Below are positions 2,763 through 16,892 of a stretch of DNA of 16,920 nt, one piece after another. How positions within the stretch are numbered: position 1 is the first letter of the stretch; each line of letters begins with the position of its first letter. The DNA comes from a bacterium (lineage in GTDB: Bacteria > BMS3Abin14): NCBI GenBank assembly GCA_029210545.1, contig JARGFV010000052.1:1-16920 (forward strand), given 5' to 3'. The notes below the pieces were generated by a model. That model had not been told where the DNA came from. It saw nothing but the letters and a program-made list of their open reading frames with translations, and searched no databases. The translations under genes were made by a program, and so were the position numbers.

Positions 2763-2821
2763 AGGAGATATTTGAACAATCTTTCATTTTTTGGCTCATC
2801 CGGTTAATGCGTACCTGATCC

Positions 2822-2884
2822 GTCTTCGTTCTTCGGACTTCCGTCTTCGTTCTTCGAACTTCCGTCTTCGTTCTTCGAACTACG
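2822..2884. repeat. Tandem array of 21-bp units (3 x 7 bp)
   Basis: Three 21-base copies, each made of three heptamers (GTCTTCG, TTCTTCG, then GACTTCC, AACTTCC or AACTACG). On the minus strand it reads RRTKTEV per unit in the open frame upstream of the radical SAM gene. It belongs to the set of 7-base-period arrays seen in most spacers of this window. Confidence 0.85.
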
Positions 2885-2933
2885 CCGTGACAAGACGCCG
2901 TGACAAGACGCCGTGACAAGTCGCCGTGACAAG
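2882..2933. repeat. Four tandem 13-bp repeats
   Basis: Four head-to-tail copies of (A/T)CGCCGTGACAAG, differing only in the first base of the last copy. They abut the 21-bp array. This is the only tandem array in the window whose period is not a multiple of seven. Confidence 0.85.
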
Positions 2934-2954
2934 CAGATTTTCTCCGATGAACCT

Positions 2955-3001
2955 AATTTCCAACAGCTTCTTCAGATTCCCTGAAGAAGCTGTTGGAAAT
3001 T
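2955..3001 (-). terminator. 21-bp perfect hairpin spanning the end of the isomerase-like gene
   Basis: Arms 2955-2975 and 2981-3001 are perfectly complementary around a five-base loop. On the minus strand the first arm encodes the residues NFQQLLQ near the C-terminus, and the stop codon (2972-2974) falls in the second arm. The stem is only moderately GC-rich and no long T run follows. It is therefore a plausible but atypical terminator between this gene and the radical SAM gene. Confidence 0.55.
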
Positions 3002-3745
3002 CAGGAGAGACCGGGCCGTTTCCTCACGGCTGTGGTGCTCGAGGACCACCACGGGATCCAGGCTGCGGGCCGCCACCTCACGGCAAAGGGCCCGGAAGTC
3101 GAACTCCCCCTCTCCCACCGGCAGGTGAAGATCCCGCTGCCTGTCGTTGTCGTGGAGGTGGAGTTCGGCAAGACCGTTTCCGAACACGTCCAGCCAGTCG
3201 CCGAGGGTCACCTCCGAAAAGAGAAGGAGATGTCCAGTGTCCAGGCAAAAACCAAGTTCCTCACCCAGGCGATCCCTCAGTGCTCCAAGGTGATCGGGAC
3301 GGGTGTCAAAAACGTTTTCGAGACAGACACGGGTGCCGGCCTTCTCTGCCGACTCCAACAGTTCGCCCCAGATTCGCAGGCTGTTGGTGAGCCACAACTC
3401 CTCACGCCAGGCGAACCGCCATCGGTCAAACCCGGGATGAAAAACGATCTGTTTCGGTCCCACCCGGCGGGCCAGTTCCATGACCTGTGAGAACCGGAAC
3501 CGTGTGACCTCCAGGACCCTTGGGTCGAACCCCCCGGGAGAGAGGTCGATGAAGGGCGCGTGAAAAGTCAGTTCCCGCCCGCCTTCCCCCCACCTGACCA
3601 TATCTTCCACTGCTGCGTCGTCAAGGCTGTCGAGGTGCTCCCCGGCCAGGTATATTTCAGGGAAAAGCCCGTGGGCGTCCAGGAACTCGAGGTCACCGGT
3701 GAGGTCTTTCAGACCGGCCCGGCCGTAGAGAGCGGCGCAGCTCAT
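2972..3745 (-). CDS. Sugar phosphate isomerase/epimerase-like TIM-barrel protein (AP endonuclease 2 family)
   Basis: 257 residues, the usual size for the xylose-isomerase-like/AP endonuclease 2 superfamily (PF01261). Its members are metal-dependent TIM-barrel isomerases, epimerases, nucleases or phosphodiesterases. Likely metal ligands lie at the expected strand ends: H62 (TFHAPF), H103 (VFHPGF), E143 (CLENVFD), D169 and H172 (CLDTGH), H196/H198 (ELHLHDN) and E236 (VLEHH). The substrate cannot be read from sequence. The ATG overlaps the TGA of the K+ channel gene (ATGA, 3742-3745), so the two are probably translationally coupled. The last residues are encoded in the arm of a long hairpin that also contains the stop. 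Family assignment is firm, specific function open. Confidence 0.85.
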   Translation of the reverse strand: MSCAALYGRAGLKDLTGDLEFLDAHGLFPEIYLAGEHLDSLDDAAVEDMVRWGEGGRELTFHAPFIDLSPGGFDPRVLEVTRFRFSQVMELARRVGPKQIVFHPGFDRWRFAWREELWLTNSLRIWGELLESAEKAGTRVCLENVFDTRPDHLGALRDRLGEELGFCLDTGHLLLFSEVTLGDWLDVFGNGLAELHLHDNDRQRDLHLPVGEGEFDFRALCREVAARSLDPVVVLEHHSREETARSLLNFQQLLQGI

Positions 3746-4803
3746 GATCCGGTGGCGACCTTGTCCAGGCGCTCGAGATCCGGGCCGTGTCCCAGCACCA
3801 CAAGGGTATCACCCGCCTTGATCTCGGTGTTGAAGTTGGGATTGAACTCCATGATGCCGGTAACCCCCTTGATGGCCAGAATGACGATGTTGAGATCCTT
3901 CCTCAGCCCAGAAGTGGCAAGGGTCGTGCCGACCAGGGTGGACTTGGGGCTGACACGTTTTTCGTCCAGGATGAGATCCATCTCCTTGTTCTGGATAATG
4001 TTTTCCAGGAAATCGAGGACCGTGGGACGGACGATAGCCTGTGCGATGCGATGCCCTCCCAGGAAATAGGGGGAGACCACCTTGTTGGCCCCCGCCCGGA
4101 CCAGCTTTTTGATGGTCTCCTCGGCAGCCGAACGGGCCACGATGTTCAGCTTGGGGTTCAGGCCCCGCGCGGTGAGAACGATGAAGACGTTCTGGGCGTC
4201 GTCTGTGACCACCGAAACGAGGCCCCTGGCCCTTTCTATGCCGGCCTCAATGAGTTCCTCGTCACTGGTGGCGTCGGCTTTCATGTATGGGACACCGAGC
4301 CGCTCCAGCTCTTCGAGAACCTCGTCCCCGCTCTCGAGGACCACGAAGGGGATCTTCATCTCGGTGAGCTCTTCACAGATGATGCGCCCCATCCGGCCGA
4401 AACCACAGATAATGTAATGGTCGCGAAGCTTCTGGATCGCCTTCATGGATCTCCTCCCGAGGGCGGTTTTGATCCTTTCTTCGATCATGAGGTTACCGGC
4501 GGTGCCCAGGGCAAAACCCGCGGAACCGACACCCATGACGATGACAAGGATACTGAGGAACTTTCCGGCGTAGGAAAGGGGATGGACCTCTCCGTAGCCG
4601 ACAGTGGAGAGGGTCAGGACGGTCATGTAGAAGGAATCGAGGACCCCCCATCCCTCAACGACCATGTACCCGAGGGTGCCGCCGCCGATCACAAGTGTGA
4701 GGACGACCAGGGCCATCCTCAGCTGGACCTTGAGGGAGGTGAGCCCGTTGCTCCGGTCCGGCCGATTTCGATCCAGCCTCCACCCCGTGCGCCTGGCGGT
4801 CAC
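3742..4803 (-). CDS. Potassium channel protein with RCK (TrkA-N/TrkA-C) regulatory domains
   Basis: Two-helix K+ channel of the Kch/MthK type, in the inner membrane. A first transmembrane segment (from LRMALVVLTLVIGGG) is followed by the pore helix and the selectivity filter TVGYGE, then a second segment (FLSILVIVMGVGSAGFALG). A Rossmann-type RCK domain follows with IICGFGRMGR, an acidic strand end (VVLESGD) and KADATSDE, then a C-terminal TrkA-C domain (GTTLATSGLRKDLNIVILAI, GDTLVVLG). The chosen start is a GTG at 4803, 19 bases after the FmdB-like stop, with a weak GGACGG upstream, giving 353 residues. The frame stays open to a GTG at 4893, but that would overlap the upstream gene by 71 bases; an ATG at 4716 is the other option. 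It is coupled to the downstream isomerase-like gene by an ATGA overlap. Confidence 0.88.
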   Translation of the reverse strand: MTARRTGWRLDRNRPDRSNGLTSLKVQLRMALVVLTLVIGGGTLGYMVVEGWGVLDSFYMTVLTLSTVGYGEVHPLSYAGKFLSILVIVMGVGSAGFALGTAGNLMIEERIKTALGRRSMKAIQKLRDHYIICGFGRMGRIICEELTEMKIPFVVLESGDEVLEELERLGVPYMKADATSDEELIEAGIERARGLVSVVTDDAQNVFIVLTARGLNPKLNIVARSAAEETIKKLVRAGANKVVSPYFLGGHRIAQAIVRPTVLDFLENIIQNKEMDLILDEKRVSPKSTLVGTTLATSGLRKDLNIVILAIKGVTGIMEFNPNFNTEIKAGDTLVVLGHGPDLERLDKVATGS

Positions 4804-4822
4804 CGCATCCGTCCGCTTGTGA

Positions 4823-5089
4823 TCAGTCGCTGTTGGCGGGACAGGTCTGGCAGGCCGGCTTATTCTTTTCGTCGCCGCACGAACCGGCCTCACTGGAGGT
4901 TGAAGAACCCGGTGAGGAATAATCGGTCTTGTACCAACCGTTCCCCTTGAGGATGAAGTTTGTTGTGTTAATAAGCCTTTCGACCTTGCCTCCGCACTTC
5001 AAGCATCCGTCCAGGGGATCATCGGTGATCCTCTGGACGATCTCGAAGGTCTCTTTGCACTTGCCGCAGCGGTACTCGTATGTGGGCAT
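4823..5089 (-). CDS. FmdB family zinc ribbon protein
   Basis: Small (88-residue) protein starting MPTYEYRCGKC, the hallmark of the FmdB/CxxC_CxxC_SSSS putative regulatory family. The zinc ribbon is C8-x2-C11 with C29-x2-C32. The KCGG.VERLI and FILKGNGWYKTDY segments are also typical. The tail is Ser-rich and ends with extra cysteines (CGDEKNKPACQTC). The ATG at 5089 has a strong site, AGGAGAG, five bases upstream; the open frame further upstream is repeat-derived. It lies first in a likely operon with the K+ channel and isomerase-like genes. The exact role of the family is poorly known. Confidence 0.9.
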   Translation of the reverse strand: MPTYEYRCGKCKETFEIVQRITDDPLDGCLKCGGKVERLINTTNFILKGNGWYKTDYSSPGSSTSSEAGSCGDEKNKPACQTCPANSD

Positions 5090-5111
5090 TAATCTCTCCT
5101 GGAAAGATCTC

Positions 5112-5146
5112 GTGATTGGTAATTCGTGATCCGTGATAGGTAACCG
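5112..5146. repeat. Heptamer array, GTGATCC/GTAATTC type
   Basis: Five in-phase 7-base units of the form GT(G/A)A followed by three variable bases (GTGATTG, GTAATTC, GTGATCC, GTGATAG, GTAACCG). It lies between the FmdB-like start and the PHP gene stop. Confidence 0.75.
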
Positions 5147-5153
5147 CGAAGAG

Positions 5154-5169
5154 CTTATATCTATATAAG
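5154..5169 (-). promoter_or_regulatory. AT-rich palindrome, possible promoter/operator for the FmdB-like operon
   Basis: CTTATAT-CT-ATATAAG is a perfect 7-bp inverted repeat about 65-80 bases upstream of the FmdB-like start. It is the most promoter-like stretch of the 161-base gap between stop and start; TATAAG or TATAGA could be a -10 element on the minus strand. I see no convincing -35 box. Confidence 0.3.
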
Positions 5170-5225
5170 GTTCACTGATCACTGCATTCCGGCTACTGGG
5201 TACTGAGTACTGGGTACCGGGTTTA
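5170..5225. repeat. Heptamer array, GGGTACT/GATCACT type
   Basis: Eight consecutive 7-base units in one phase, grading from GTTCACT and GATCACT into GGGTACT, GAGTACT and GGGTACC. The first units match those of the large array at 7989-8086. Confidence 0.7.
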
Positions 5226-5250
5226 AATCTATTCACGAAAAACTCTTCTG

Positions 5251-6102
5251 TCAACGTCCTGCCTTTTCCCGGTGCAGGGCAATCAGGGCGTCGGCGACGG
5301 ATCTCGGGATCTCCAGGTTGCCCCTGCCGACACCCAGCCGGGTCTCCATCATCCCCGGCCCGTGGAAATCGCTCCCCCCTGTTGCCAGCAGACCGTGCTT
5401 TTCGGCCAAGGCAACGTAAAGGGCCGTTTCTTCAGCGGAATGGCTGTAATAGTGGGCTTCCACACCCGCAAGCCCGAGGGAGGCCAGGCGTCCGAGAAGG
5501 TCTGAAAGGTCCCCGTCGGGAAGGGAGAGGGTCTGGGGATGGGCCAGGACAGGCACGCCCCCGGCCTGAAGGACCTTTTCGACGGCCCGCTCCGGGGTCA
5601 TCTTCTCCCGGTCGGTATAGGCGGCTGCCCCTTTCCCGAGGTAGCGGTCGAAGGCCTCCGTGAAGGTGGAGACGTATCCCCGCGCGAGCATGGCGTTGGC
5701 GATGTGGGGGCGTCCCATGCTCTCACCTCCAGCCAGGGCGGCAACCTCATCCCAATCCATGGGACAGCCCAGTTCGGCCAGTTTCTTCAGGATGATCCGG
5801 TTTCTGTCGTCTCTTCCGCCCCGCAGCCAGGCCAGGGTCTCCATGAGGCTCTCATCCCCGGGGTCCACGAAATAGCCCAGCATATGCATGGTCCCCGGGT
5901 TGTACTCGGCACTGATCTCGATACCGGGAATGAACTCGATCCCCAGCTTCCCGGCAGCCTGCCGGGCCTCCGCGAGACCCGAGAGGGTGTCGTGATCGGT
6001 GAGGGCGATCACCTCGATGCCGGCCTCGGCGGCGTGAGCCATGAGTGCCGAAGGGGATAGCTTTCCGTCCGAAGCGGTGGAGTGGGTATGTAGATCTATC
6101 AT
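5251..6102 (-). CDS. PHP domain metal-dependent phosphoesterase (TrpH/RnmV-like)
   Basis: 283-residue PHP-domain hydrolase resembling the YciV/RnmV (RNase AM) and TrpH group, members of which act on nucleoside bisphosphates or short RNA 5' ends. Metal-binding motifs are all visible: D3-L-H5-T-H7 at the N-terminus, T35-D36-H37-D38, E61 in PGIEIS, GRPHIA, VLAHP, and GGSDFHG near the C-terminus. The ATG at 6102 is preferred over the in-frame ATG at 6120. It gives the usual MIDLHTHS start and has AAGGTG five bases upstream, whereas the earlier ATG has its purine run directly adjacent. The gene is divergent from the kinase gene. The specific substrate is not determined. Confidence 0.88.
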   Translation of the reverse strand: MIDLHTHSTASDGKLSPSALMAHAAEAGIEVIALTDHDTLSGLAEARQAAGKLGIEFIPGIEISAEYNPGTMHMLGYFVDPGDESLMETLAWLRGGRDDRNRIILKKLAELGCPMDWDEVAALAGGESMGRPHIANAMLARGYVSTFTEAFDRYLGKGAAAYTDREKMTPERAVEKVLQAGGVPVLAHPQTLSLPDGDLSDLLGRLASLGLAGVEAHYYSHSAEETALYVALAEKHGLLATGGSDFHGPGMMETRLGVGRGNLEIPRSVADALIALHREKAGR

Positions 6103-6123
6103 GATCTCACCTTTGATCATTCC

Positions 6124-6151
6124 TTATCAGTAGTCAGGAGCCGGGAGCCGG
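6124..6151. repeat. Heptamer array, GAGCCGG type
   Basis: Four in-phase 7-base units (TTATCAG, TAGTCAG, GAGCCGG, GAGCCGG) just upstream of the PHP gene start. Short and degenerate, but of the same period as the other spacer arrays. Confidence 0.55.
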
Positions 6152-6153
6152 AA

Positions 6154-6167
6154 TGATATTAATATCA
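6154..6167. promoter_or_regulatory. 14-bp AT palindrome in the divergent spacer
   Basis: TGATATTAATATCA is a perfect palindrome between the divergent PHP and kinase genes. It could be an operator or part of an AT-rich promoter; no regulator is identifiable from the window. Confidence 0.35.
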
Positions 6168-6267
6168 ACCAAACTACCCTCGTAAAAGGCCTTCTGGAAG
6201 CCATTTTGCATGTCCATCAAACGAGTTGGTAGAATTACTCTTCGCCAACAGTAAAGTCAACCGGGTC

Positions 6268-6307
6268 ACCCGAAATCCGCGATTGGTTTTGATCGCGGAT
6301 TCCGGGT
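6268..6307. other. 16-bp stem hairpin upstream of the kinase gene
   Basis: Arms 6268-6283 and 6292-6307 pair with one mismatch (A6273/C6302) around an eight-base loop. It is GC-rich (core ATCCGCGAT) and is followed by the pyrimidine array. It could form in the kinase leader RNA as an attenuator-like or stabilising structure. There is no clean U tract, so I do not call it a terminator. Confidence 0.5.
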
Positions 6308-6312
6308 CTTCC

Positions 6313-6410
6313 TTCTTCCTTCTCCCTCCTGGCTCCTTCCTTTCCACTTTCCACTTTCCATTTGCTTTTCCCACTTTCTTTTCTCCCTTCCCCCTTTCCC
6401 CTTTCCTCTG
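6313..6410. repeat. Pyrimidine heptamer array upstream of the kinase
   Basis: Up to fourteen 7-base units on an almost pure C/T strand, clearest at 6334-6361 (TCCTTCC, TTTCCAC, TTTCCAC, TTTCCAT) and degenerate towards the end. The tract continues nearly to the kinase ATG and leaves no purine-rich ribosome binding site. The kinase frame reads through it without a stop. Confidence 0.65.
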
Positions 6411-6423
6411 CTATTTTTCTCCC

Positions 6424-7986
6424 ATGAAGAAGGTCTTCGGCAACTACACCCTTGTTGAGCGCATCGGCGTCGGGGGCATGGGAGAAGTCCACCGGGCCAT
6501 CAAGGGAGGGCCGGACGGTTTCAGGGTCGAGGTTGCCCTCAAGCTCATCCTGCCTCACCTCGCCAGGGACGACGCCTTCAGAACGAGGTTCTCCAGGGAG
6601 GCCCGTCTGGCTGCCCGCCTCAACCACCCGAACATCGTCCGGGTTCACGGTTTCGATATCCAGGATGGTTCCCCCTTCATCGAGATGGAGTACGTGGCCG
6701 GCGCCGATCTGGCCGCCCTGATCAGGACCCTTTGCGAAGGGGAACGCCTGCCTCTTCCCCAGGCTGTTCACATCATCCACGGCGTGGCGAGGGGACTCGC
6801 CTACGCCCACTCCAGTCCGCGCAGCGGCGGGGATGGAGGGCCTGCCGCCGGACCGGTAGTTCACCGCGATCTCAACCCTCACAATATCCTCCTGTCCTAC
6901 GCCGGGGAGGTCAAGATCGCTGACTTCGGTATCGCCAGGGCCTCCCTTGCCGACATCACCGCATCGGCCACACTCATGGGGAAACTGGCCTACATGGCGC
7001 CGGAGCAGGTTGACGGCAAACCTCTGGACCATCGCTGCGATCTCTTCAGCCTCGGCATCACCGCCTACCAGCTGTTCACCGGTGTCCACCCTTTCAAAAG
7101 GGCCAGCGAGGCAGCCACCCTCATCGCGGTCCAGAAAGCATCCTTCCGGCCCATCGAAGAGTTTATTCCTGAACTGCCAAAGGACATCACGGCGGCTATC
7201 GCTTCCCTCCTTGCAGCCGACCCCGAAGATCGCCCGGCCAGTGCCGCTCAAATCGCCGATATCATGGAAAAACACGTCGAGCCCGGCACGTCGGCAGCCG
7301 TCGCCCGGCGGGTCGAGAGGGCATCCGCTCCCGTGCAGGGCAATATAACCGCCGCCGCGACCGCTCAAACCATGCAACGGCTCCGCAAGCCGTGGACGGT
7401 TCCTGTCCTGGGGGCAACGGCTGCCGGGTTGACCGCCCTGCTCATCCTTGTAAACCTTTTTTCCAGCGCCCCTGTTCGACAACCCGATCAATCCGCGCCA
7501 CCGACACAGGTGATCTCCTCCCCACCATCCACCCCTGTACCGGCCTCACCCGGTGAAGAACTGGTGGACGCCCGGGTGCGCGTCGTCACCGTTCCCCAAC
7601 AGGCCGACATCTTCATGAAAGGGACGCTCCTGGGCCGCTCACCATTAACGGTCTCCCTGCCGTCGGAAGAAGGGGAAGCGGAGTTCCGGGCCGAGCTGCC
7701 CGCCTTTTCCCGGACCCGTTTCACACTGAGGCGGGACCAGGCCGGGGAAGAGGTCATCATCGAGCTTACGCCCATCCCAATGGTAACTGTTCACATCCAG
7801 GCCGTACCGTGGGCCAGGATCATGATCAATGGAAAGGATGCGGGAGAAACACCCCGGGACATCGAGCTGCCCATCGGGCAACAGCTGCTGACCCTGGTCA
7901 ACCCTGTCCTGGGGGTCACGAAAGAGATCGACGTGATGGTTCACAAAGGGATGAAACCTCTCACCATCGATATGGAGGAGAGATAG
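6424..7986 (+). CDS. Eukaryotic-like Ser/Thr protein kinase with transmembrane segment and PEGA domains
   Basis: 520-residue Hanks-type kinase anchored in the inner membrane. Glycine-rich loop G15-VGGMGEV22, VALK lysine K40, helix-C glutamate E59, catalytic loop HRD (D149), DFG aspartate D167, and the MAPEQ motif are all present, so catalysis is plausible. The catalytic loop reads HRDLNPHN: the usual lysine two residues after the aspartate is Asn, and a Gly/Pro-rich insertion precedes it. A single hydrophobic segment at about 326-346 leads to a Pro-rich linker and two PEGA-like repeats (VTVPQQADIFMKGTLLGRSPL and VPWARIMINGKDAGETPRDIEL), predicted to be periplasmic. The ATG at 6424 is chosen because homology starts at FGNYTLVERIG. 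It has no Shine-Dalgarno site, and the frame is open upstream to a TTG at 6226 through repeat sequence. The target is unknown. Confidence 0.9.
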   Translation: MKKVFGNYTLVERIGVGGMGEVHRAIKGGPDGFRVEVALKLILPHLARDDAFRTRFSREARLAARLNHPNIVRVHGFDIQDGSPFIEMEYVAGADLAALIRTLCEGERLPLPQAVHIIHGVARGLAYAHSSPRSGGDGGPAAGPVVHRDLNPHNILLSYAGEVKIADFGIARASLADITASATLMGKLAYMAPEQVDGKPLDHRCDLFSLGITAYQLFTGVHPFKRASEAATLIAVQKASFRPIEEFIPELPKDITAAIASLLAADPEDRPASAAQIADIMEKHVEPGTSAAVARRVERASAPVQGNITAAATAQTMQRLRKPWTVPVLGATAAGLTALLILVNLFSSAPVRQPDQSAPPTQVISSPPSTPVPASPGEELVDARVRVVTVPQQADIFMKGTLLGRSPLTVSLPSEEGEAEFRAELPAFSRTRFTLRRDQAGEEVIIELTPIPMVTVHIQAVPWARIMINGKDAGETPRDIELPIGQQLLTLVNPVLGVTKEIDVMVHKGMKPLTIDMEER

Positions 7987-7988
7987 GA

Positions 7989-8086
7989 GTTCACAGTTCA
8001 CAGTTTACAGTTTACAGTTCACGGTTCACTGATCACTGATCACGGTTCACTGATCACGGTTCACGGTTCACGGTTCACGTTTCACC
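7989..8086. repeat. Heptamer array, GTTCACG/GATCACT type (largest in the window)
   Basis: Fourteen in-phase 7-base units starting two bases after the kinase stop codon. Variants are GTTCACA, GTTTACA, GTTCACG, GTTCACT, GATCACT and GATCACG, ending in TTTCACC. Variants are clustered and interspersed, as expected from slippage combined with point mutation. The array fills the gap to the ABC ATPase ribosome binding site. Confidence 0.9.
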
Positions 8087-8112
8087 GGTGAGTTCCGGGG
8101 AGAGGAACATCT

Positions 8113-8874
8113 TTGCTCAACCTCGATTCTGTCAGCGTAACCTACTCCACGGCGGCCGGTGACCACCAGGCACTTGCCGCCGTCGACATGACGGTGGAAA
8201 AGGGCGGTTCCTGCGTCATCATCGGGCCGACGGGGTGCGGCAAAACCTCTCTCCTGTTCCTCCTGGCCGGCCTCATTGCGCCCACGGAGGGGCGGGTATC
8301 GGTAGGCGGCGATACCTTGGCGGGAGTCCGCCGGGGAACCAGCCTCATTCTCCAGCAGCACGGCCTTTTCCCGTGGAAAGACGCTTACGCCAATGCTTCC
8401 CTGGGGCTCACCCTGCGGAACGTGGACCCTCGAGAGGTCCTCTCGACCACTCGAAAACTCATGGAAGAGATGGGGATATGGGAGATAAGGAAGAGCCTCC
8501 CCTCCCAGCTTTCCGGAGGCCAGAGGCAGCGGGTAGCCATCGCCCGGTCCCTGGCCACATCCCCGGATCTTCTTCTCATGGACGAGCCGTTTTCCGCCCT
8601 GGATGCCATGACCCGGGAGACCCTCCAGGACCTGGTACTTGCCCTTTGGAAGGAATGGGCTTTCACCTTCGTCCTGGTGACCCACAGTATCGAAGAGGCG
8701 GTATTCCTGGGCAAAAAGATCGTCGTCATGTCAGCCGGGCCCGGCCGCATCGCCCAGGTGGTGGATAACCGTGCCATGGGAGATCACGGTTTTCGCCTCA
8801 CCGGACCGTTCCATGAAAAATGCACCGAGCTTCGCCGGCTCATGGAACATACCCGCCAGGAAAACCCGGCATGA
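8113..8874 (+). CDS. ABC transporter ATP-binding protein, nitrate/sulfonate/taurine (SsuB/TauB) type
   Basis: 253-residue ABC ATPase energising uptake through the permease encoded next. Walker A is GPTGCGKTS (38-46), the signature LSGGQRQR begins at L133, Walker B LLLMDEP places D157-E158, and the switch histidine is H191 (VTHSIEEA). The Q-loop region (LILQQHGLFPWKDAYAN) and the C-terminal MSAGPGRI segment match the SsuB/TauB/ThiZ group. Translation probably starts at a TTG (8113), with GGGGAGAGG about nine bases upstream; I see no ATG giving a full N-terminus. The TGA overlaps the ATG of the permease (ATGA). Substrate is unassigned, and no substrate-binding protein gene is adjacent. Confidence 0.9.
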   Translation: MLNLDSVSVTYSTAAGDHQALAAVDMTVEKGGSCVIIGPTGCGKTSLLFLLAGLIAPTEGRVSVGGDTLAGVRRGTSLILQQHGLFPWKDAYANASLGLTLRNVDPREVLSTTRKLMEEMGIWEIRKSLPSQLSGGQRQRVAIARSLATSPDLLLMDEPFSALDAMTRETLQDLVLALWKEWAFTFVLVTHSIEEAVFLGKKIVVMSAGPGRIAQVVDNRAMGDHGFRLTGPFHEKCTELRRLMEHTRQENPA

Positions 8875-9620
8875 GCCGGAAACAGCGCACCTTGACCGGG
8901 TACATTTTAGCCCTGGGCACCATCCTGGCGCTCTGGCAGGCCGCCGCCTGGGTGCTTTCCACACAGTCTCTCCCGGGACCTTTATCTGTCGCCGTTTCCT
9001 TTTTCTCCCAGATCACCGGCCGGCTCGCCGGTCACTTTCTCGTCTCCGGCTACCGGGTCCTTGTGAGCCTCGTTCTCGCCCTCGGCACAGCAGTACCTTT
9101 TGGCATCGCCATGGGCAGGATCAAGGGAGCGGACCGGCTCCTGTCACCTTTCGTCTACCTTCTCTACCCGATACCGAAGATCGCCCTCCTGCCGCTGATC
9201 CTCCTCCTGTTCGGTATCGGGGACGGTTCCAAGATCTTCCTCATCTCCTTCATCCTCTTTTTCCAGATCCTCGTGGCCACCCGGGACGCGGCGCGTGAGA
9301 TCCCCAGGGAACACATCCTTTCCATGCGCTCCCTTGGGGCCGGCAGGAGGCAGAAGGCGATCCACCTTGTGCTGCCGGCAATTCTGCCCAAGGTCCTCAC
9401 GAGCCTCCGGATCGGGATCGGGACCTCCATCGCCGTCCTTTTCTTCGTGGAATCCTTTGCCACCAGCAAGGGCCTCGGATTCTTCATCCTGGACGCCTGG
9501 AGCCGGCTCGATTACGAGAGCATGTATGCGGGGATCGTGGGGATGGGCCTTCTCGGAGTGATCCTCTACGAGTTGGTGGAGGTCCTGGACCGGAAGTTAT
9601 GCGGGTGGACCAAAATATAA
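8871..9620 (+). CDS. ABC transporter permease, SsuC/TauC type
   Basis: 249-residue inner-membrane permease of the binding-protein-dependent family. About six hydrophobic segments are visible, including ILALGTILALWQAAAWVL, SLVLALGTAVPFGIAMG, a segment around PIPKIALLPLILLLFGIG, and IVGMGLLGVILYELV near the end. The EAA-type cytoplasmic loop reads MRSLGAGRRQKAIHLVLPA and should contact the ATPase. The start ATG overlaps the ATPase stop and has AGGAAA upstream. The TAA stop lies within the stem of the downstream terminator. It forms a two-gene transporter with the ATPase; the binding protein must be encoded elsewhere or be absent. Confidence 0.9.
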   Translation: MSRKQRTLTGYILALGTILALWQAAAWVLSTQSLPGPLSVAVSFFSQITGRLAGHFLVSGYRVLVSLVLALGTAVPFGIAMGRIKGADRLLSPFVYLLYPIPKIALLPLILLLFGIGDGSKIFLISFILFFQILVATRDAAREIPREHILSMRSLGAGRRQKAIHLVLPAILPKVLTSLRIGIGTSIAVLFFVESFATSKGLGFFILDAWSRLDYESMYAGIVGMGLLGVILYELVEVLDRKLCGWTKI

Positions 9621-9658
9621 AAAATCTGCCCATCCGAAGATGGGCAGATTTTTTATAT
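9615..9658. terminator. Bidirectional rho-independent terminator between convergent genes
   Basis: A perfect 20-bp stem (9615-9634 with 9639-9658) around a CGAA tetraloop. The GC core TCTGCCCATC/GATGGGCAGA is flanked by an A run on one side and a T run on the other, so it can serve both the permease (plus) and gdhA (minus). The permease TAA (9618-9620) sits in the stem. Confidence 0.93.
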
Positions 9659-9676
9659 CTTTGTTAAAGGTGCGGA

Positions 9677-11038
<1,362 letters not shown>

Positions 11039-11112
11039 TTAATCTTGACCATGATTCCCTGTTGACCAGCTGCCGTCTCGGATAAGCTGTTTCCTGTATC
11101 AGGGCAGGCCGC

Positions 11113-11140
11113 TGTGACGACACACACCATCATCGTCACA
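11113..11140 (-). promoter_or_regulatory. Inverted repeat upstream of gdhA, possible operator
   Basis: TGTGACGA and TCGTCACA form perfect 8-bp arms around a 12-base spacer, about 90-115 bases upstream of the gdhA start. The layout suits a dimeric regulator site. I could not find convincing -10/-35 boxes beside it. Confidence 0.4.
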
Positions 11141-11160
11141 ACGATTGCATCCCAAAGGAA

Positions 11161-11365
11161 GTGCAAGCTTCATACCATTTCGACGATCTGCGTGACAGGT
11201 TGTTTTATCTTTTATTTACAAAGGGTTATCTGTCACCTTTTCAGGATCGCAAAAGGCAACGCCCGTTTTTGTGTATATATGAAACAATTTTGTATATAAA
11301 TATTACACATAAATGGGCCCTTTCATTTATATTCCCGTGCGGCATGCATTCTTTATTTCATTATT
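11161..11365. other. AT-rich non-coding stretch
   Basis: About 200 bases clearly richer in A/T than the rest of the window, with TATATA-type runs at 11273-11300. A plus-strand frame stays open through it into the ChaN-like remnant, but its residues (e.g. YETILYINITHK) match no family I know. It may contain the gdhA promoter on the minus strand or be decayed or acquired DNA. I recognise no gene in it. Confidence 0.5.
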
Positions 11366-11367
11366 GC

Positions 11368-11583
11368 ATGAGCTCTGGACACGCACCTCCCGCTCCATTG
11401 GAATACCTGTCGAACAACCCGGGGGAAACGATGGTTGTCCTCGCCGGCAACAGCCACGCGTGGAAACCGGGCATCCCCGGCCAGCTGGCCGATTTCAACC
11501 CCGGCATGCCCTACAGGGTCATCCTCCCCGAGGTCCTCGTTGCCCAGCCCAGGAGCAGGATTACAGAAGAGCTGGCAGACTAA
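11368..11583 (+). pseudogene. Remnant of a ChaN-like (Cofac_haem_bdg, PF04187) gene, C-terminal fragment
   Basis: About 60 residues resemble the C-terminal end of ChaN-family haem-binding lipoproteins: MVVLAGNSHAWKPGIPGQL, then YRVILPEV and ITEELAD. No signal peptide, lipobox or N-terminal two-thirds of the family can be found upstream; the frame instead runs into AT-rich sequence. The TAA at 11581 looks like a mutated TAC, because the frame would continue as DYLWLLEVN, which fits the usual family ending, until TAA at 11614. No ribosome binding site is visible. Family identification is from motif memory and moderately sure. Confidence 0.5.
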
Positions 11584-11598
11584 CTGTGGCTGTTGGAA

Positions 11599-11619
11599 GT
11601 TAACGGTTCACAGTAAACT
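11599..11619. repeat. Short heptamer array at the end of the ChaN-like remnant
   Basis: Three in-phase 7-base units (GTTAACG, GTTCACA, GTAAACT) overlapping the former 3' end of the ChaN-like frame, 11 bases before the tetR promoter. Short enough to be chance alone; called because of its likeness to the array at 7989. Confidence 0.4.
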
Positions 11620-11630
11620 TCGCTTGTTCC

Positions 11631-11659
11631 TTGACACCGACCGACCGGTCGGTCAAAAT
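11631..11659 (+). promoter_or_regulatory. Predicted sigma70 promoter with TetR-type operator in the spacer
   Basis: A consensus -35 box TTGACA (11631-11636) is followed by a 17-base spacer and a weak -10 box CAAAAT (11654-11659). The 16-bp perfect palindrome GACCGACCGGTCGGTC (11639-11654) fills the spacer, so a bound repressor would block RNA polymerase. It lies about 210 bases upstream of the tetR start, and autoregulation by that TetR protein is the simplest reading. The palindrome type is, from general knowledge, common for TetR-family operators. Confidence 0.72.
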
Positions 11660-11663
11660 TTCA

Positions 11664-11698
11664 GGTATAGGTAATCCGTAATCAGTAATCCGTAACCA
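11664..11698. repeat. Heptamer array, GTAATCC type
   Basis: Five in-phase 7-base units (GGTATAG, GTAATCC, GTAATCA, GTAATCC, GTAACCA) immediately downstream of the predicted tetR promoter, so within the leader RNA. Related in form to the array at 5112-5146. Confidence 0.8.
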
Positions 11699-11769
11699 GA
11701 TAAAGCTGATCTTTTTTAATGGAATCTCGCTGGTAAACACTGGCTGCTCTTTGCGGAGGATGGTCCAGG

Positions 11770-11859
11770 ATGGCTACTATTTCAGGCGGAATGCATTTTT
11801 CTTTCTCCTCCCTCCTGCCTCCTCCCTCCTCCCTGCCTCCTCTCTCCTCCCGGTATTAA
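11770..11859 (+). other. Possible leader ORF in frame with tetR (29 codons)
   Basis: ATG at 11770 has a good GGAGGA site nine bases upstream (11755-11760). It opens a 29-codon frame, partly encoded by the pyrimidine heptamers (Ser/Pro/Leu-rich). It ends at TAA 11857-11859, one codon before the tetR ATG and in the same frame. It could couple translation of tetR, which has no ribosome binding site of its own. No homology is expected; this is a structural inference. Confidence 0.35.
11806..11847. repeat. Pyrimidine heptamer array upstream of tetR
   Basis: Six in-phase 7-base units on a pure C/T strand apart from two G positions (TCCTCCC, TCCTGCC, TGCCTCC, TCTCTCC), ending 15 bases before the tetR ATG. 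It occupies the region where a Shine-Dalgarno site would lie. Confidence 0.8.
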
Positions 11860-11862
11860 CCA

Positions 11863-12477
11863 ATGTCGGCGAGAAGGATCGACAGGGAGAACAAGAAACA
11901 CGATATCGCCCTCGCGGCCATGTCCGTTTTTGCCGATCACGGATTTGATTCCACATCCATGAGCAGGGTAGCCTCTGAAGCGGGTATCGGCAAAGGCACG
12001 ATCTACGAGTATTTTTCCTCCAAGGACGACCTCATCGCCACATCCATCCGCCTCTGGATGCAGAACATGGCCGAGGAAACGGAAAAGGCTCTCGAAGCGA
12101 TCCCGGACCCCGAGAGCCGCCTGAGGGCCTACGTCCACTCCTTTGTTGATATGTTCCTCACCGATGAGAAGATGCCCCGGCTCATGGTCTCCTGTTTCCA
12201 GTTTTTCATGACCAGGCGGAGCGACACGAAATTCAGCGACACCCTTCGGATCATGTTCAGGGCCGGTGTGAGTTCCATCGAGAGGATTCTTCTGGATGGG
12301 ATGGAAGCGGGTGTGTTCAGGATCGAAAGCTACCAGGATGCCGAGCGGATTGCCGTCAACCTCACGGCCTTCCTTGACGGGATCTGCCTTGATTACCTGG
12401 CCACGGGCGGGGTTTTCGACCTCAGGGAGCAGGTGGAATATTACATGAGGTACCTGCTGGAGGCAGACATAAAATGA
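11863..12477 (+). CDS. TetR/AcrR family transcriptional regulator
   Basis: 204-residue dimeric repressor-type protein. The N-terminal DNA-binding domain is typical: ALAAMSVFADHGFDSTSM (17-33), then the helix-turn-helix VASEAGIGKGTIYEYFSSKDDLI (36-58). The C-terminal all-helical ligand domain is divergent, so the ligand is unknown. The ATG at 11863 gives the normal short basic N-terminus but has no Shine-Dalgarno site; a leader ORF stops three bases upstream. The palindrome in the promoter at 11639 is its likely operator. As the first gene before the LolA-like/permease/ATPase genes, it probably controls them together with itself. Confidence 0.92.
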   Translation: MSARRIDRENKKHDIALAAMSVFADHGFDSTSMSRVASEAGIGKGTIYEYFSSKDDLIATSIRLWMQNMAEETEKALEAIPDPESRLRAYVHSFVDMFLTDEKMPRLMVSCFQFFMTRRSDTKFSDTLRIMFRAGVSSIERILLDGMEAGVFRIESYQDAERIAVNLTAFLDGICLDYLATGGVFDLREQVEYYMRYLLEADIK

Positions 12478-12481
12478 ATCG

Positions 12482-12509
12482 GTTCCAGGTTCCAGATTCC
12501 AGGTTCCAA
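12482..12509. repeat. Heptamer array, GTTCCAG type
   Basis: Four in-phase 7-base units (GTTCCAG twice, ATTCCAG, GTTCCAA), starting four bases after the tetR stop codon. Confidence 0.8.
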
Positions 12510-12616
12510 GAAAGATTGAAAGGAAGCAGATCGTACAAGTTGAACGGTGAAAAGTGAATGGAACCCACTTCCCGAGACTGCTTCGGACAGGACTTGCCTC
12601 GCAGCGACAAACGCCC

Positions 12617-12651
12617 TGTCATTGCGAACTGATAAACGTGTGAAGCAATCT
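12617..12651. repeat. Degenerate copy of the TCATTGCGA...GAAGCAATC dispersed repeat
   Basis: TGTCATTGCGAAC, an eight-base centre, then GTGTGAAGCAATCT, with ATTGC/GCAAT arms. From general knowledge this pattern is a common intergenic repeat in deltaproteobacterial and some other genomes. It lies between tetR and the LolA-like gene; that 201-base gap otherwise holds the GTTCCAG array and no gene I recognise. Confidence 0.5.
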
Positions 12652-12678
12652 GGGTTACCGGCCGGAAGGGATATCGCA

Positions 12679-13455
12679 ATGAGGTTCGAGATTTCAACAA
12701 GGTACCTGTTTATTCTTGTCCTCTTTCTCGTTCTTTTCAGCTCCAGGATTTCGGTGGCGGCTACGGCCACCGAAATCCTGGAGAGAGTCGACGACCTGTG
12801 GCGGGGGGAGTCCAGTTTTGCCGAGATGACCATGGAGGTAAAGACCGAGCACTACGAAAGGTCCATGAAGCTCAAGGCGTGGTCCCTCGGAAAGGACAGG
12901 TCCATCATCGTCATCACCTACCCTCCCAAGGACAGAGGCGTAGCCACCCTCAAGGTGGACAAGGATATCTGGAACTACCTGCCAAGGGTCAACCGGGTCA
13001 TCAGGGTCCCCTCCTCCATGATGATGGCCAACTGGATGGGCAGCCATTTCACCAACGACGACCTGGTCAAGGAGAGCAGGATGTCGGAGGACTATGAAGC
13101 CGAGGTGACCTTTGAGGGAGAGCGCGAGGGGACGCTCATCTATGAACTGACACTCGTACCGAAACCCGACGCCCCCGTGGTCTGGGGGCGAATCGAGATC
13201 TCCGTCGTGCAGGACACTCTCACTCCCGTCCGGGCCCTTTACTACGACGAGGAGGGCGTCCTCACCCGGACCATGGAATTCAGTGATATACGGATGATGG
13301 GCGAGAGGGAGATCCCCGCGGTCATGACCCTGATCCCGGAAGACAAGCCGGAAGAGAGGACGGTGATCACCTACGATTCTCTCGATCTGAACCTTGACCT
13401 TGACGCGGACTTTTTCTCCCGTGCCAATATCACCGGAAAGGACCTTCTGCGATGA
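12679..13455 (+). CDS. LolA-like outer membrane lipoprotein-sorting protein
   Basis: 258-residue periplasmic protein. A signal peptide is clear: a short basic start (MRFEISTRY), hydrophobic core LFILVLFLVLF, likely cleavage near ISVAA. The mature part matches the LolA-like fold family found beside MacB/LolCE-type exporters (TATEILERVDDLWRGESSFAEMTM, RSIIVITYPPKDRGVATLKV, IWNYLPRVNRVIRVPSSMM, LDADFFSRANI near the end). It probably carries a hydrophobic cargo or lipoprotein delivered by the neighbouring ABC exporter. The ATG at 12679 is chosen for its AAGGG site and the signal peptide; the open frame upstream is repeat sequence. The stop overlaps the first permease ATG (ATGA), showing coupling. 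A perfect 18-bp hairpin lies in its codons for the signal-peptide end. Confidence 0.88.
   Translation: MRFEISTRYLFILVLFLVLFSSRISVAATATEILERVDDLWRGESSFAEMTMEVKTEHYERSMKLKAWSLGKDRSIIVITYPPKDRGVATLKVDKDIWNYLPRVNRVIRVPSSMMMANWMGSHFTNDDLVKESRMSEDYEAEVTFEGEREGTLIYELTLVPKPDAPVVWGRIEISVVQDTLTPVRALYYDEEGVLTRTMEFSDIRMMGEREIPAVMTLIPEDKPEERTVITYDSLDLNLDLDADFFSRANITGKDLLR
12741..12783. repeat. 18-bp perfect inverted repeat inside the LolA-like coding sequence
   Basis: CTCCAGGATTTCGGTGGC (12741-12758) and its exact reverse complement (12766-12783) flank a seven-base loop. It encodes the end of the signal peptide and the start of the mature protein (SSRISVAATATEILE). A stem this long and perfect is unexpected inside a gene. 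Confidence 0.85.
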
Positions 13456-14675
13456 CCCTCGTCAGGATGGCGTGGAGGAACCTCTGGCGAAACCCGAGGA
13501 GGACCCTCATCACCCTGTTTTCCATGATCTTCGGGCTCACCATGATGATCGTAGGGTACGCTCTTATGGACGGGATGCTTGACCAGATGGTGCACTACGC
13601 CACCCTCCTGGGAACGGGGCATGTGCAGATCCACCATCCGGAATACCTTGAGGACCATTCCCTCTACGACACCATGCCGTCAACCCCCGAGGCCATCGCG
13701 GCCGCGTCCGGTTTCGGTGAGGCCGCGCCCAGGATCTTTGCCACGGCCCTCGTCAGCTCCGGCAAACAGTCGGCCGGAGGGCAGCTGTGGGGAATCGACC
13801 CGGCCCGGGAAAGTAACGTGACCGAGCTGCATAAGCACCTGAGCGAGGGCCGCTGGCTGGAACCGGAAGCACGGGAACAAGTGGTCCTTGGGAAGAACAT
13901 CGCGAGGACACTTTCGGTCAGGCCTGGTGACGAGATCATCGTCCTGACCCAGGCGGCCGACGGTTCCCTGGGAAACGCCATCTTCACTGTCTCCGGCGTG
14001 TTCAAGAGCATCGGCGAAGCGGTGGATCGTGGAGGGGTTTTCATGCACATCAACGACCTTGCCACTTTGCTCGTCCTGGACGGCAAGATCCACGAGATCG
14101 CCGTAAGGCTCGACGAACCCGACAACCTCGACCTGGCCCGCGCCGGCATCCAGGAGCACCTCGACCCTGAACAGTACAAGGTCGAGGACTGGAAACAGCT
14201 TCTCCCGGAGCTGTCCGAGTACCTGCGCCTCAGTTCCTCCAGCATGGGCATCATGCTGCTCGTCATCTTTGCCGTCGCCGGTCTCGGTATCGTAAACACA
14301 CAGCTCATGGCCCTGTTCGAGAGGACGAGAGAGATCGGCATAATGAGGGCCCTGGGCATGGGGCCGTTCCCGGTAGCCGCACTCCTCCTCATCGAAACGA
14401 TCTTCCTTGCTCTCATGGCGGCCGCCGCGGGGGGAGTAACAGGATCCCTCTGGTCTTTACATCTGGAGAAGAACGGTTGGGACATATCGTGGATGGGCGG
14501 CAGCTTCGACTTCGTGGGGGTCGCCTTCGATCCCCACATGTACGCGACCCTGACCCTTGAGGCGGTCTTCCAGTCCGTGGCCATCATGTTCATCGTCGTC
14601 CTCGTGGTCATTTTGTATCCCCTGTTCAGGGCGACCAGGATCAGCCCGGTGGACGCCATCGGAAGGGGGCGGTGA
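13452..14675 (+). CDS. ABC transporter permease, FtsX/MacB/LolCE type (first)
   Basis: 407-residue inner-membrane subunit with the four-helix MacB/LolC topology. An N-terminal amphipathic MAWRNLWRNPRRTLITLF leads into TM1 (about 20-38). A large periplasmic domain follows to about residue 260, then TM2 (265-288), the cytoplasmic ERTREIGIMRALGM loop, TM3 (305-333) and TM4 (372-394), ending RATRISPVDAIGRGR. These proteins transmit ATPase motion to the periplasm rather than forming a classical channel. Start and stop overlap the neighbouring genes (ATGA with the LolA-like gene; TGATG with the second permease). It probably pairs with the second permease as a heterodimer like LolC/LolE. Confidence 0.92.
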   Translation: MTLVRMAWRNLWRNPRRTLITLFSMIFGLTMMIVGYALMDGMLDQMVHYATLLGTGHVQIHHPEYLEDHSLYDTMPSTPEAIAAASGFGEAAPRIFATALVSSGKQSAGGQLWGIDPARESNVTELHKHLSEGRWLEPEAREQVVLGKNIARTLSVRPGDEIIVLTQAADGSLGNAIFTVSGVFKSIGEAVDRGGVFMHINDLATLLVLDGKIHEIAVRLDEPDNLDLARAGIQEHLDPEQYKVEDWKQLLPELSEYLRLSSSSMGIMLLVIFAVAGLGIVNTQLMALFERTREIGIMRALGMGPFPVAALLLIETIFLALMAAAAGGVTGSLWSLHLEKNGWDISWMGGSFDFVGVAFDPHMYATLTLEAVFQSVAIMFIVVLVVILYPLFRATRISPVDAIGRGR

Positions 14676-15904
14676 TGGTCGTCAAGCTCGCTTTCAGGAA
14701 CCTCCGCCGAAACTTCCGCCGCACCCTGATCACCGTTTTGGCCATAGGGATCGGAACGGGCCTGGCCCTGTTCGGTGTCGGTCTCGGGGACGGCGGCCAT
14801 TTCCAGATGATCGAAAACGGCGTAAGCATCGGCCAGGGACATCTGACCTTCCAGAAAGAGGGGTTCCTGGAATCTCCCTCCAACACCCTTTTCATTGAGG
14901 ATCCGGCTCTTTTCATGGAGATCGCCGGCCGGTCAGATGACGTCGACCAGGCCTTTCCCCGGATCAGGGGAGATGGCATGCTGGCCACAGCGGCCGGCGC
15001 GGAGGGTGTCGCCTACCAGGGGATCGATCCGACCCGACCCGGCGAGGCCTCGATTTTTCGCAGGAGCATGTCCGAAGGGGAATTCCTGACCGAAAACGCG
15101 GGTGCCGGGATCGTGGTGGGCGCCAGGCTTGCCGATCGATTAAAGCTGAAAGTGGGCCGGAAAGCCGTTCTGACCACCCAGGACGCCACCGGTGAGATCA
15201 CCAGCACCCTCCTGAGGGTGACAGGTATCTTCCGGACCGGGTCGGGTGCCATCGATGGAAGCATCTGCCTGATCCCCCTGGCATTCCTCCAGGAAGCGCT
15301 CTCCATGAATGGAGGGGTCACCTCCATAGCTCTTTACATCAGGAACCCTTTCAAGCATGAGGAAACGCTGCAACGGATCGCCGCGCAGATCCCGGAAGGT
15401 CCAACACATCTTTACGCATGGCAGACACTCCAGCCCGACCTGAGAGACTACGTGGTCATCGACGACGCCTTCGGGTACATGATCTACGCCATCATCCTTC
15501 TCATCGTCGCCATCGGTGTCCTCAACACCGTTCTCATGTCGGTCATGGAACGGCGCCGGGAGATCGGCATCCTCACCGCCGTGGGCATGGAGGGGGGACA
15601 GGTCATGAGGATGTTACTCACCGAGACGGTTTTCATCACCATCCTCGGGATCCTGGCCGGTCTCGCCATGGGCCTGGGTGTTAATTGGTATTTTTCAGTC
15701 TACGGCTGGGATCTGAGCGCGATGTCTCCCGAGGAGTGGAGCCTGGCCGGCACCGTCATCGATCCCGTCCTGCGCTCACATCTGCGGCCGCAAAGGGCGA
15801 TCATCCTGTGCGGGCTGGTTTTCCTGCTCACCGTGACCATGGGCATATACCCGGCCTGGAAGGCCTCCAGGACCCTGCCGGTGGAGGCGATGGAGAAGCC
15901 TTAA
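14675..15904 (+). CDS. ABC transporter permease, FtsX/MacB/LolCE type (second)
   Basis: 409-residue paralogue of the preceding permease, with the same plan: KLAFRNLRRNFRRTLITVLAI at TM1 (about 15-38), periplasmic domain, TM2 (267-290), ERRREIGILTAVGM loop, TM3 (310-338), TM4 (374-395), and an ending WKASRTLPVEAMEKP. The ATG at 14675 is preferred over the GTG at 14672 because GGAAGGGGGC is well spaced from it; either start overlaps the previous stop. The two permeases are clearly related but differ through the periplasmic part, which suggests a LolC/LolE-like asymmetric pair. The stop codon lies in the first unit of a 48-bp tandem duplication. Confidence 0.92.
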   Translation: MVVKLAFRNLRRNFRRTLITVLAIGIGTGLALFGVGLGDGGHFQMIENGVSIGQGHLTFQKEGFLESPSNTLFIEDPALFMEIAGRSDDVDQAFPRIRGDGMLATAAGAEGVAYQGIDPTRPGEASIFRRSMSEGEFLTENAGAGIVVGARLADRLKLKVGRKAVLTTQDATGEITSTLLRVTGIFRTGSGAIDGSICLIPLAFLQEALSMNGGVTSIALYIRNPFKHEETLQRIAAQIPEGPTHLYAWQTLQPDLRDYVVIDDAFGYMIYAIILLIVAIGVLNTVLMSVMERRREIGILTAVGMEGGQVMRMLLTETVFITILGILAGLAMGLGVNWYFSVYGWDLSAMSPEEWSLAGTVIDPVLRSHLRPQRAIILCGLVFLLTVTMGIYPAWKASRTLPVEAMEKP

Positions 15905-15993
15905 AGGCAGTCCAAAGTCCAATGTCCAATGTCCAAAGGGACTACGCCTTAAAGGCAGTCCAAAGTCCAATGTCCAAAGTCCAAAGGGACTAC
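15898..15993. repeat. 48-bp tandem duplication built of GTCCAAT-type heptamers
   Basis: Two adjacent 48-base copies (15898-15945 and 15946-15993) with one mismatch. Each contains four in-phase 7-base units (GTCCAAA, GTCCAAT), then GGGACTA. The first copy includes the last codon and the TAA of the second permease. Confidence 0.88.
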
Positions 15994-16041
15994 CATTTTA
16001 TGGAACTTGAAATTTGAAATTCAATCGTCCGGAGGCCAACC

Positions 16042-16743: not shown

Positions 16744-16892
16744 TGGACTCGCAAAAAGTCCATCAACGCGCCCCGCGCGGGGCGCCCAAATCAAGGACAA
16801 GCCGCGCCTGGGAGAGGCGCCCGGATCGATGACCGACAAAAGCAGCCGCGCCTGGGAGAGGCGCCTGGATCGAGTGCCAATGGCTGTGTGTT
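16739..16892 (+). repeat. Multi-hairpin intergenic element, right copy
   Basis: Inverted copy of the element at 1-154 and of the same length. In order: an 11-bp stem (16739-16749 with 16757-16767, loop CGCAAAA), the self-complementary 18-mer (16768-16785), and two GCGCCT/AGGCGC hairpins (16804-16820 and 16848-16864). The stop codon of the LolD-like gene (16741-16743) is inside the first arm. The outer base pair of the first stem is G-C here and A-T in the left copy, and the inner stem bases also differ with pairing kept. The last 28 bases of the window show nothing I can identify. Confidence 0.85.

Follow-up and report, generated by a model that had tools for sequence, protein, structure and literature searches.

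Tandem arrays with a period of 7 bp lie in intergenic gaps of this genome and of its family relatives, and each family of units mostly holds one orientation, judged inward from the closest gene edge, at both gap ends and on any gene strand. The best explanation that we can offer, and we offer it tentatively, is that the arrays are paired heptamer sites amplified by slippage, whose inward orientation is kept by a putative protein that reads DNA directionally. The structural description is firm. From it we infer the mechanism, in which slippage would account for the birth of arrays and a directional binding protein for their keeping.

Period-7 arrays in the window, the genome and its relatives

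The window is the whole stretch of DNA analysed, 16,920 nucleotides of contig JARGFV010000052.1. Arrays were called in it by Tandem Repeats Finder and a lag-match scan (Table 1). A sequence-only reading of the window had listed a series of heptamer arrays in strict 7-base phase. Period-7 arrays were recovered at every listed position except 11599-11619, where neither finder calls an array and the readable units are three and degenerate (GTTAACG GTTCACA GTAAACT). The phase is not strict throughout, as the 2819-2881 array is best described by 21-bp units and abuts a 13-bp array (ACGCCGTGACAAG, four copies, 97%) at 2882-2933. Long ORFs cross three of the arrays. These ORFs are probably read-through and the arrays then lie in spacers, since the genes called by a coding model begin at 2754, 5089 and 6424.

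Table 1. Heptamer arrays of the window
Position	Strand	Array	Context
2819..2881	.	21-bp x3 array of 7-bp units GTCTTCG/TTCTTCG/GAACTTC	97% matches, period 21
5112..5146	+	Left-edge degenerate array GTGATTG GTAATTC GTGATCC GTGATAG	Upstream of likely minus-strand gene start 5089
5170..5225	-	Right-edge array TCACTGA / GGTACTG, inward reading CAGTACC	
6124..6151	+	Left-edge array GGAGCCG	Divergent gap
6307..6410	-	Right-edge arrays TTCTTCC, TTTCCAC, CCCCTTT; inward GGAAAGT/AAAGGGG	Upstream of likely kinase start at 6424
7988..8085	+	14 units GTTCACA/GTTTACA/GATCACT/GTTCACG, longest array of the window	Begins 1 base past stop
11664..11699	+	GTAATCC/GTAATCA array	Within 11584-11862 spacer; score slightly against inward rule
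11805..11851	-	Right-edge array CTCCTCC, inward GGAGGAG	GGAGGAG family recurrent in the window's genome
12481..12508	+	Left-edge array GGTTCCA	3 bases past stop
15909..15936	+	Left-edge array AGTCCAA/TGTCCAA	G003 and G011 carry similar GTCCAA units in their orthologous lolE-lolD gap
15957..15986	+	Second copy of the 15909 array	Within 48-bp tandem duplication (15898-15993, 97%)
16007..16021	-	Right-edge array TTGAAAT, inward ATTTCAA	

Two other features of the window were recorded. The peptide VIDPGASPRRGLSLIWAPRAGR occurs in the translations at 54-160 and 16744-16850, indicating one repeat in opposite orientations; the copy at 16744 holds a GC-rich palindrome, GCGCCCCGCGCGGGGCGC, and the word ACTTTTTGCGA of such end repeats is found in 67 of 506 gaps of the window's genome, with a polarity of 71 to 31. 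At 9620-9676, an array-free gap between convergent genes carries a hairpin with an A-run and a T-run (AAAAAATCTGCCCATCCGAAGATGGGCAGATTTTTT), likely a bidirectional terminator.

Lag-7 runs in the gaps of the window (2.2 kb) comprised 156 matched bases, whereas 500 shuffles under a dinucleotide model averaged 1.7 and never exceeded 22; lags 14 and 21 are harmonics of lag 7. To extend this to the genome, we sampled 1.19 Mb of the 2.72-Mb MAG (241 contigs), using a home-made gene caller. The 165 kb of spacers held 145 exact lag-7 runs of at least 9 and the 1.02 Mb of coding sequence 34, or 87.6 against 3.3 per 100 kb, with the coding density 27 times lower. In the same spacers, runs of at least 9 numbered 46 at period 8, 9 at period 9 and 0-3 at periods 5, 6 and 10. 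In a smaller sample, 57 period-7 runs were observed compared to 0.4 in shuffled gaps. The excess of period 7 is far beyond chance, and the excess that the sequence-only reading had predicted for spacers genome-wide thus survived comparison with other periods, with shuffles and with relatives. The family relatives G001, G003, G004, G007 and G008 are also enriched (0.36-1.5 arrays per intergenic kb), and the excess is hardly present in the sampled outgroups, four of five of which had zero arrays and the fifth (G014) three. One unit, GTCCAAA, is nearly restricted to the family, forming arrays in 7 of 12 family genomes and in 2 of 278 others.

Arrays had been claimed for nearly every gap. Genome-wide this does not hold: a lag-7 run of at least 7 was present in 156 of 562 gaps (~28%), and one of at least 9 in 37 of 205 gaps of the smaller sample. 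The window, with an array in seven of its approximately ten gaps, is therefore array-rich. A constant placement, often 2-6 bases after a stop codon, had also been described. Arrays do lean toward gap edges (relative edge distance 0.189, against 0.25 expected), but they are found on the start sides and the stop sides of genes alike, so there is no visible tie to any particular gene function.

Unit vocabulary, inward polarity and pairing within gaps

The 145 unit counts in the sample of the window's genome comprised 73 distinct canonical units, compared to 133 expected for random spacer heptamers, and the commonest unit occurred 12 times where the expected maximum was 2.7. Sixteen units are common with G003 and ten with G001. 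Units are thus gap-specific, as had been proposed, yet they are not wholly unshared, being drawn from a restricted vocabulary. That vocabulary goes well beyond a few fixed sequences (73 canonical units), and GGG is absent from most units, so that a G-tract of at least three per unit is not the rule.

For the polarity test, each combination of gap, side and family contributed a single record, and flips were permuted by gap side. Units were in the majority orientation, read inward from the gene edge, in 250 of 290 records, whereas the null was 190±5 with a maximum of 210 in 4000 permutations. The plus-strand orientation, used as a control, gave the null level of 189. The inward rule was significant in each of three genera (103/122 in the window's genome, 61/64 in G003 and 42/47 in G001). 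It applied to gaps in which just one side carries arrays (126/142 vs 96±3.5) as well as to those with arrays on both sides (62/76). An EM motif with free rotation gave a log-likelihood of 976 for inward reading, compared to 889 for flipped nulls (maximum 899), and no gain for the plus strand (886.5) or gene sense (885). Orientation by gene sense or by chromosome strand, having no signal, was rejected. The inward consensus is near YCARRWT, and the motif from the three genomes predicted orientation in the held-out genomes G004, G007, G008 and G011 in 40 of 52 cases (p=1.3e-4). The effect was of similar size whether a gap was tandem, convergent or divergent, and this speaks against transcription as the cause.

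Most arrays of the window score inward, the exceptions being those at 2822 and 11664 and part of that at 7988. A second family, with period 8 and units near TCTCCGTG (inward CACGGAGA), was inward in 25 of 29 cases in the sample of the window's genome (L001-L020, L094-L133). Adjacent arrays were arranged as '><' in 52 cases and as '<>' in 11, a supporting count only, as the PWM was trained on the same data. In the spacers of the window's genome, G001 and G003, the approximately 5 bases just past the inner array end are A-rich, with A reaching 0.41 compared to ~0.28 deeper in the gap.

Within a gap, the arrays at its two ends match each other as an inverted pair, the typical form being [GATCTCA]n-core-[TGAGATT]n. 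Such pairs agreed with at most one mismatch in 13% of cases in the window's genome and 28% in G003, compared to 3.4% and 6.9% for random inward pairs; in G001, pairing within gaps was not above background. None (0%) of the arrays flanking one gene matched within one mismatch, and the gene rather than the gap as the unit of organisation was rejected on this ground. One pair from G003 forms a strong hairpin with a long stem (-30.8 kcal/mol, z=-3.5).

The sequence-only reading had argued from a shared period and unshared sequences to a mechanism that fixes the period. The period excess bears this out, but the argument is incomplete: the restricted vocabulary, the gap-edge polarity and the inverted pairing indicate that orientation is fixed as well and that a degenerate consensus is favoured, and slippage that fixes the period is therefore insufficient alone.

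Array turnover and the explanations considered

Orthologous gaps can differ by as much as hundreds of bases. A handful of them were read in G004 and G009, two species that are ~85% identical. One gap has, in G004, a core of ~245 bp containing dispersed repeats between two arms and, in G009, a coreless foldback of ~60 bp. The left arm of another gap is GTTCCAC in G004 and AGTCCAG in G009. In a third gap, the left arm AGTCCAG is common to both species in about 2 copies against 4, and the two diverge in the core and in the right arm (ACGTTGAAC against CTCTGGACT). The orthologous comparison also placed CTGGACT opposite ACGTTGAAC with the orientation unchanged, and the inward orientation was kept in every replacement examined. 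No clean empty site was seen among these few gaps, which were not chosen as a designed test. Small as the sample is, this turnover argues against the simple decay of one insertion and for continued renewal under an orientation rule.

In the explanation that we prefer, the arrays would act as directional sites located at both gap ends, with an inward consensus near YCARRWT, often forming convergent inverted pairs around a variable core. Tandem duplication of 7 nt by replication slippage would create and resize the arrays, and later point mutation would produce gap-specific units with a single fixed period. A putative nucleoid or regulatory protein that binds paired sites may then keep the orientation and the loose consensus, by analogy with a proposal made for Geobacter metallireducens. 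Slippage is suggested because copy numbers differ and because neighbouring units resemble each other, although the test of neighbour similarity is biased by the method of array extension. Several points count against this explanation: pairing in G001 does not exceed background, arrays at starts and stops alike show no tie to gene function, a strong array is missing from most gaps, and turnover is rapid. The last two are unusual for essential regulatory sites. We make no claim on the direction of growth: an initial test placed more mismatches at the inner end (49 against 89), yet the outer pair had to match by the way arrays were defined, and the outcome of a symmetric test was weak and in the opposite sense (p=0.049).

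The arrays might instead be the arms of foldback or MITE-like insertions in gaps, with solitary arrays having lost an arm. We consider this unlikely, although it accommodates the inverted terminal arms and their polarity, the dispersed repeats in cores and the large length differences between orthologous gaps. No transposase or target-site duplication was identified, and a REP/RAYT system was rejected as the driver, as RAYT (PF01797) is not enriched in the array-rich family genomes (0-3 copies vs 0-9 outside). Furthermore, the left arm shared by G004 and G009 beside a differing core and right arm, together with the coreless G009 foldback, indicates that arms and core are not mobilised together. 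The arms also comprise dozens of different units.

Neutral 7-nt slippage alone, with the period set by the length of DNA held by the polymerase and with ordinary or inverted-repeat sequence as the seed, is in our judgement slightly less likely still. It fits many units with one fixed period, the greater likeness of neighbouring than of distant units (in the biased test) and the polymerase-footprint hypothesis of Mrazek et al. 2007, as cited in PMC4692102. The gap-edge orientation, the common consensus and the matching arms are not predicted by it, unless polar sequences constantly reseed the arrays.

A role at the RNA level, in which the paired arms form transcript hairpins acting as terminators, 3' end protection, or Rho or translation signals, is very improbable. 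The stable stem of the G003 pair and the short A-rich stretch past the inner array end are consistent with it. Polarity, however, is alike in tandem, convergent and divergent gaps and gene sense carries no signal, one-sided arrays are equally polar, and the window has no Rfam match.

The least probable reading treats the arrays as scars of telomerase-like or reiterative end synthesis at breaks within gaps, where each 3' end would be lengthened inward through error-prone copying of its terminal 7 nt and the ends would then rejoin, sometimes with captured DNA as the core; if true, it would explain together the fixed period, the drifting gap-specific units, the two-sided inward polarity and the solitary arms, and a weak signal of greater homogeneity among inner units (p=0.049) fits it and proves nothing.

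Comparison with known heptamer repeats

An excess of heptamers in many bacteria is already known, as are inverted heptamer pairs in Xanthomonas and G. metallireducens; the former goes back, with the footprint hypothesis, to Mrazek et al. 2007 as cited in PMC4692102. Earlier explanations of heptamers (polymerase footprint, quadruplexes, translational control) each rested mostly on a single unit from a single lineage. In the present genome, dozens of units obey one gap-edge orientation rule that outlasts the replacement of units. The cause that sets the period is thereby separable from the cause that sets the orientation, and the arrays offer a clear test of slippage against binding proteins and mobile elements.

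In cyanobacteria (Calothrix, Nostoc), the STRR sequences cited in PMC4692102 are likewise tandem, of period 7 and placed in spacers, with several units per genome. They comprise few named unit families, and gap-edge polarity is not reported for them in the literature compared. The TAACTGA repeats of marine Beggiatoaceae (PMC4679880) are also heptamer direct repeats between genes. That system has one unit, located just upstream of start codons, and related heptamers are rarely repeated, in contrast to the many units at both gap ends described here. Xanthomonas GGGAATC and Nostoc GGGGA(T/C)T (PMC4692102) provide a further intergenic heptamer excess. The Xanthomonas unit forms 70-75 convergent inverted pairs per genome, and their lengths vary at the same genes in related species. 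Each of these two lineages has one G-rich, quadruplex-forming unit, whereas the present vocabulary is broad and most of its units are without G-tracts.

The closest description is that of G. metallireducens (PMC2700814), where tandem sites on opposite strands are paired in three classes: octamers GTTGCTYN (class 1), TCTCCGTS (class 2) and heptamers MTYCTGA (class 3), the last with about five tandem copies per array and eight pairs. They are putative sites of global regulators, and binding of the IHF/HU type is the authors' proposal. The two systems share tandem 7- or 8-nt repeats, pairs on opposite strands and variable spacing, although pairing above background is absent in G001. The inward consensus YCARRWT admits TCAGRAK, the reverse complement of the class 3 motif, with only a subset of units close to it, and the period-8 arrays of the window's genome fit class 2. 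The G. metallireducens sites number tens at most and follow a single consensus in each class, whereas dozens of variants and hundreds of arrays are present here, with a polarity rule that extends to solitary arrays. The wide range of units, the gap-edge rule in solitary and paired arrays alike, and turnover under that rule appear to be new, being undescribed in the literature compared. Together, the Geobacter pairs, the Xanthomonas pairs and the present arrays may represent one widespread kind of paired site.
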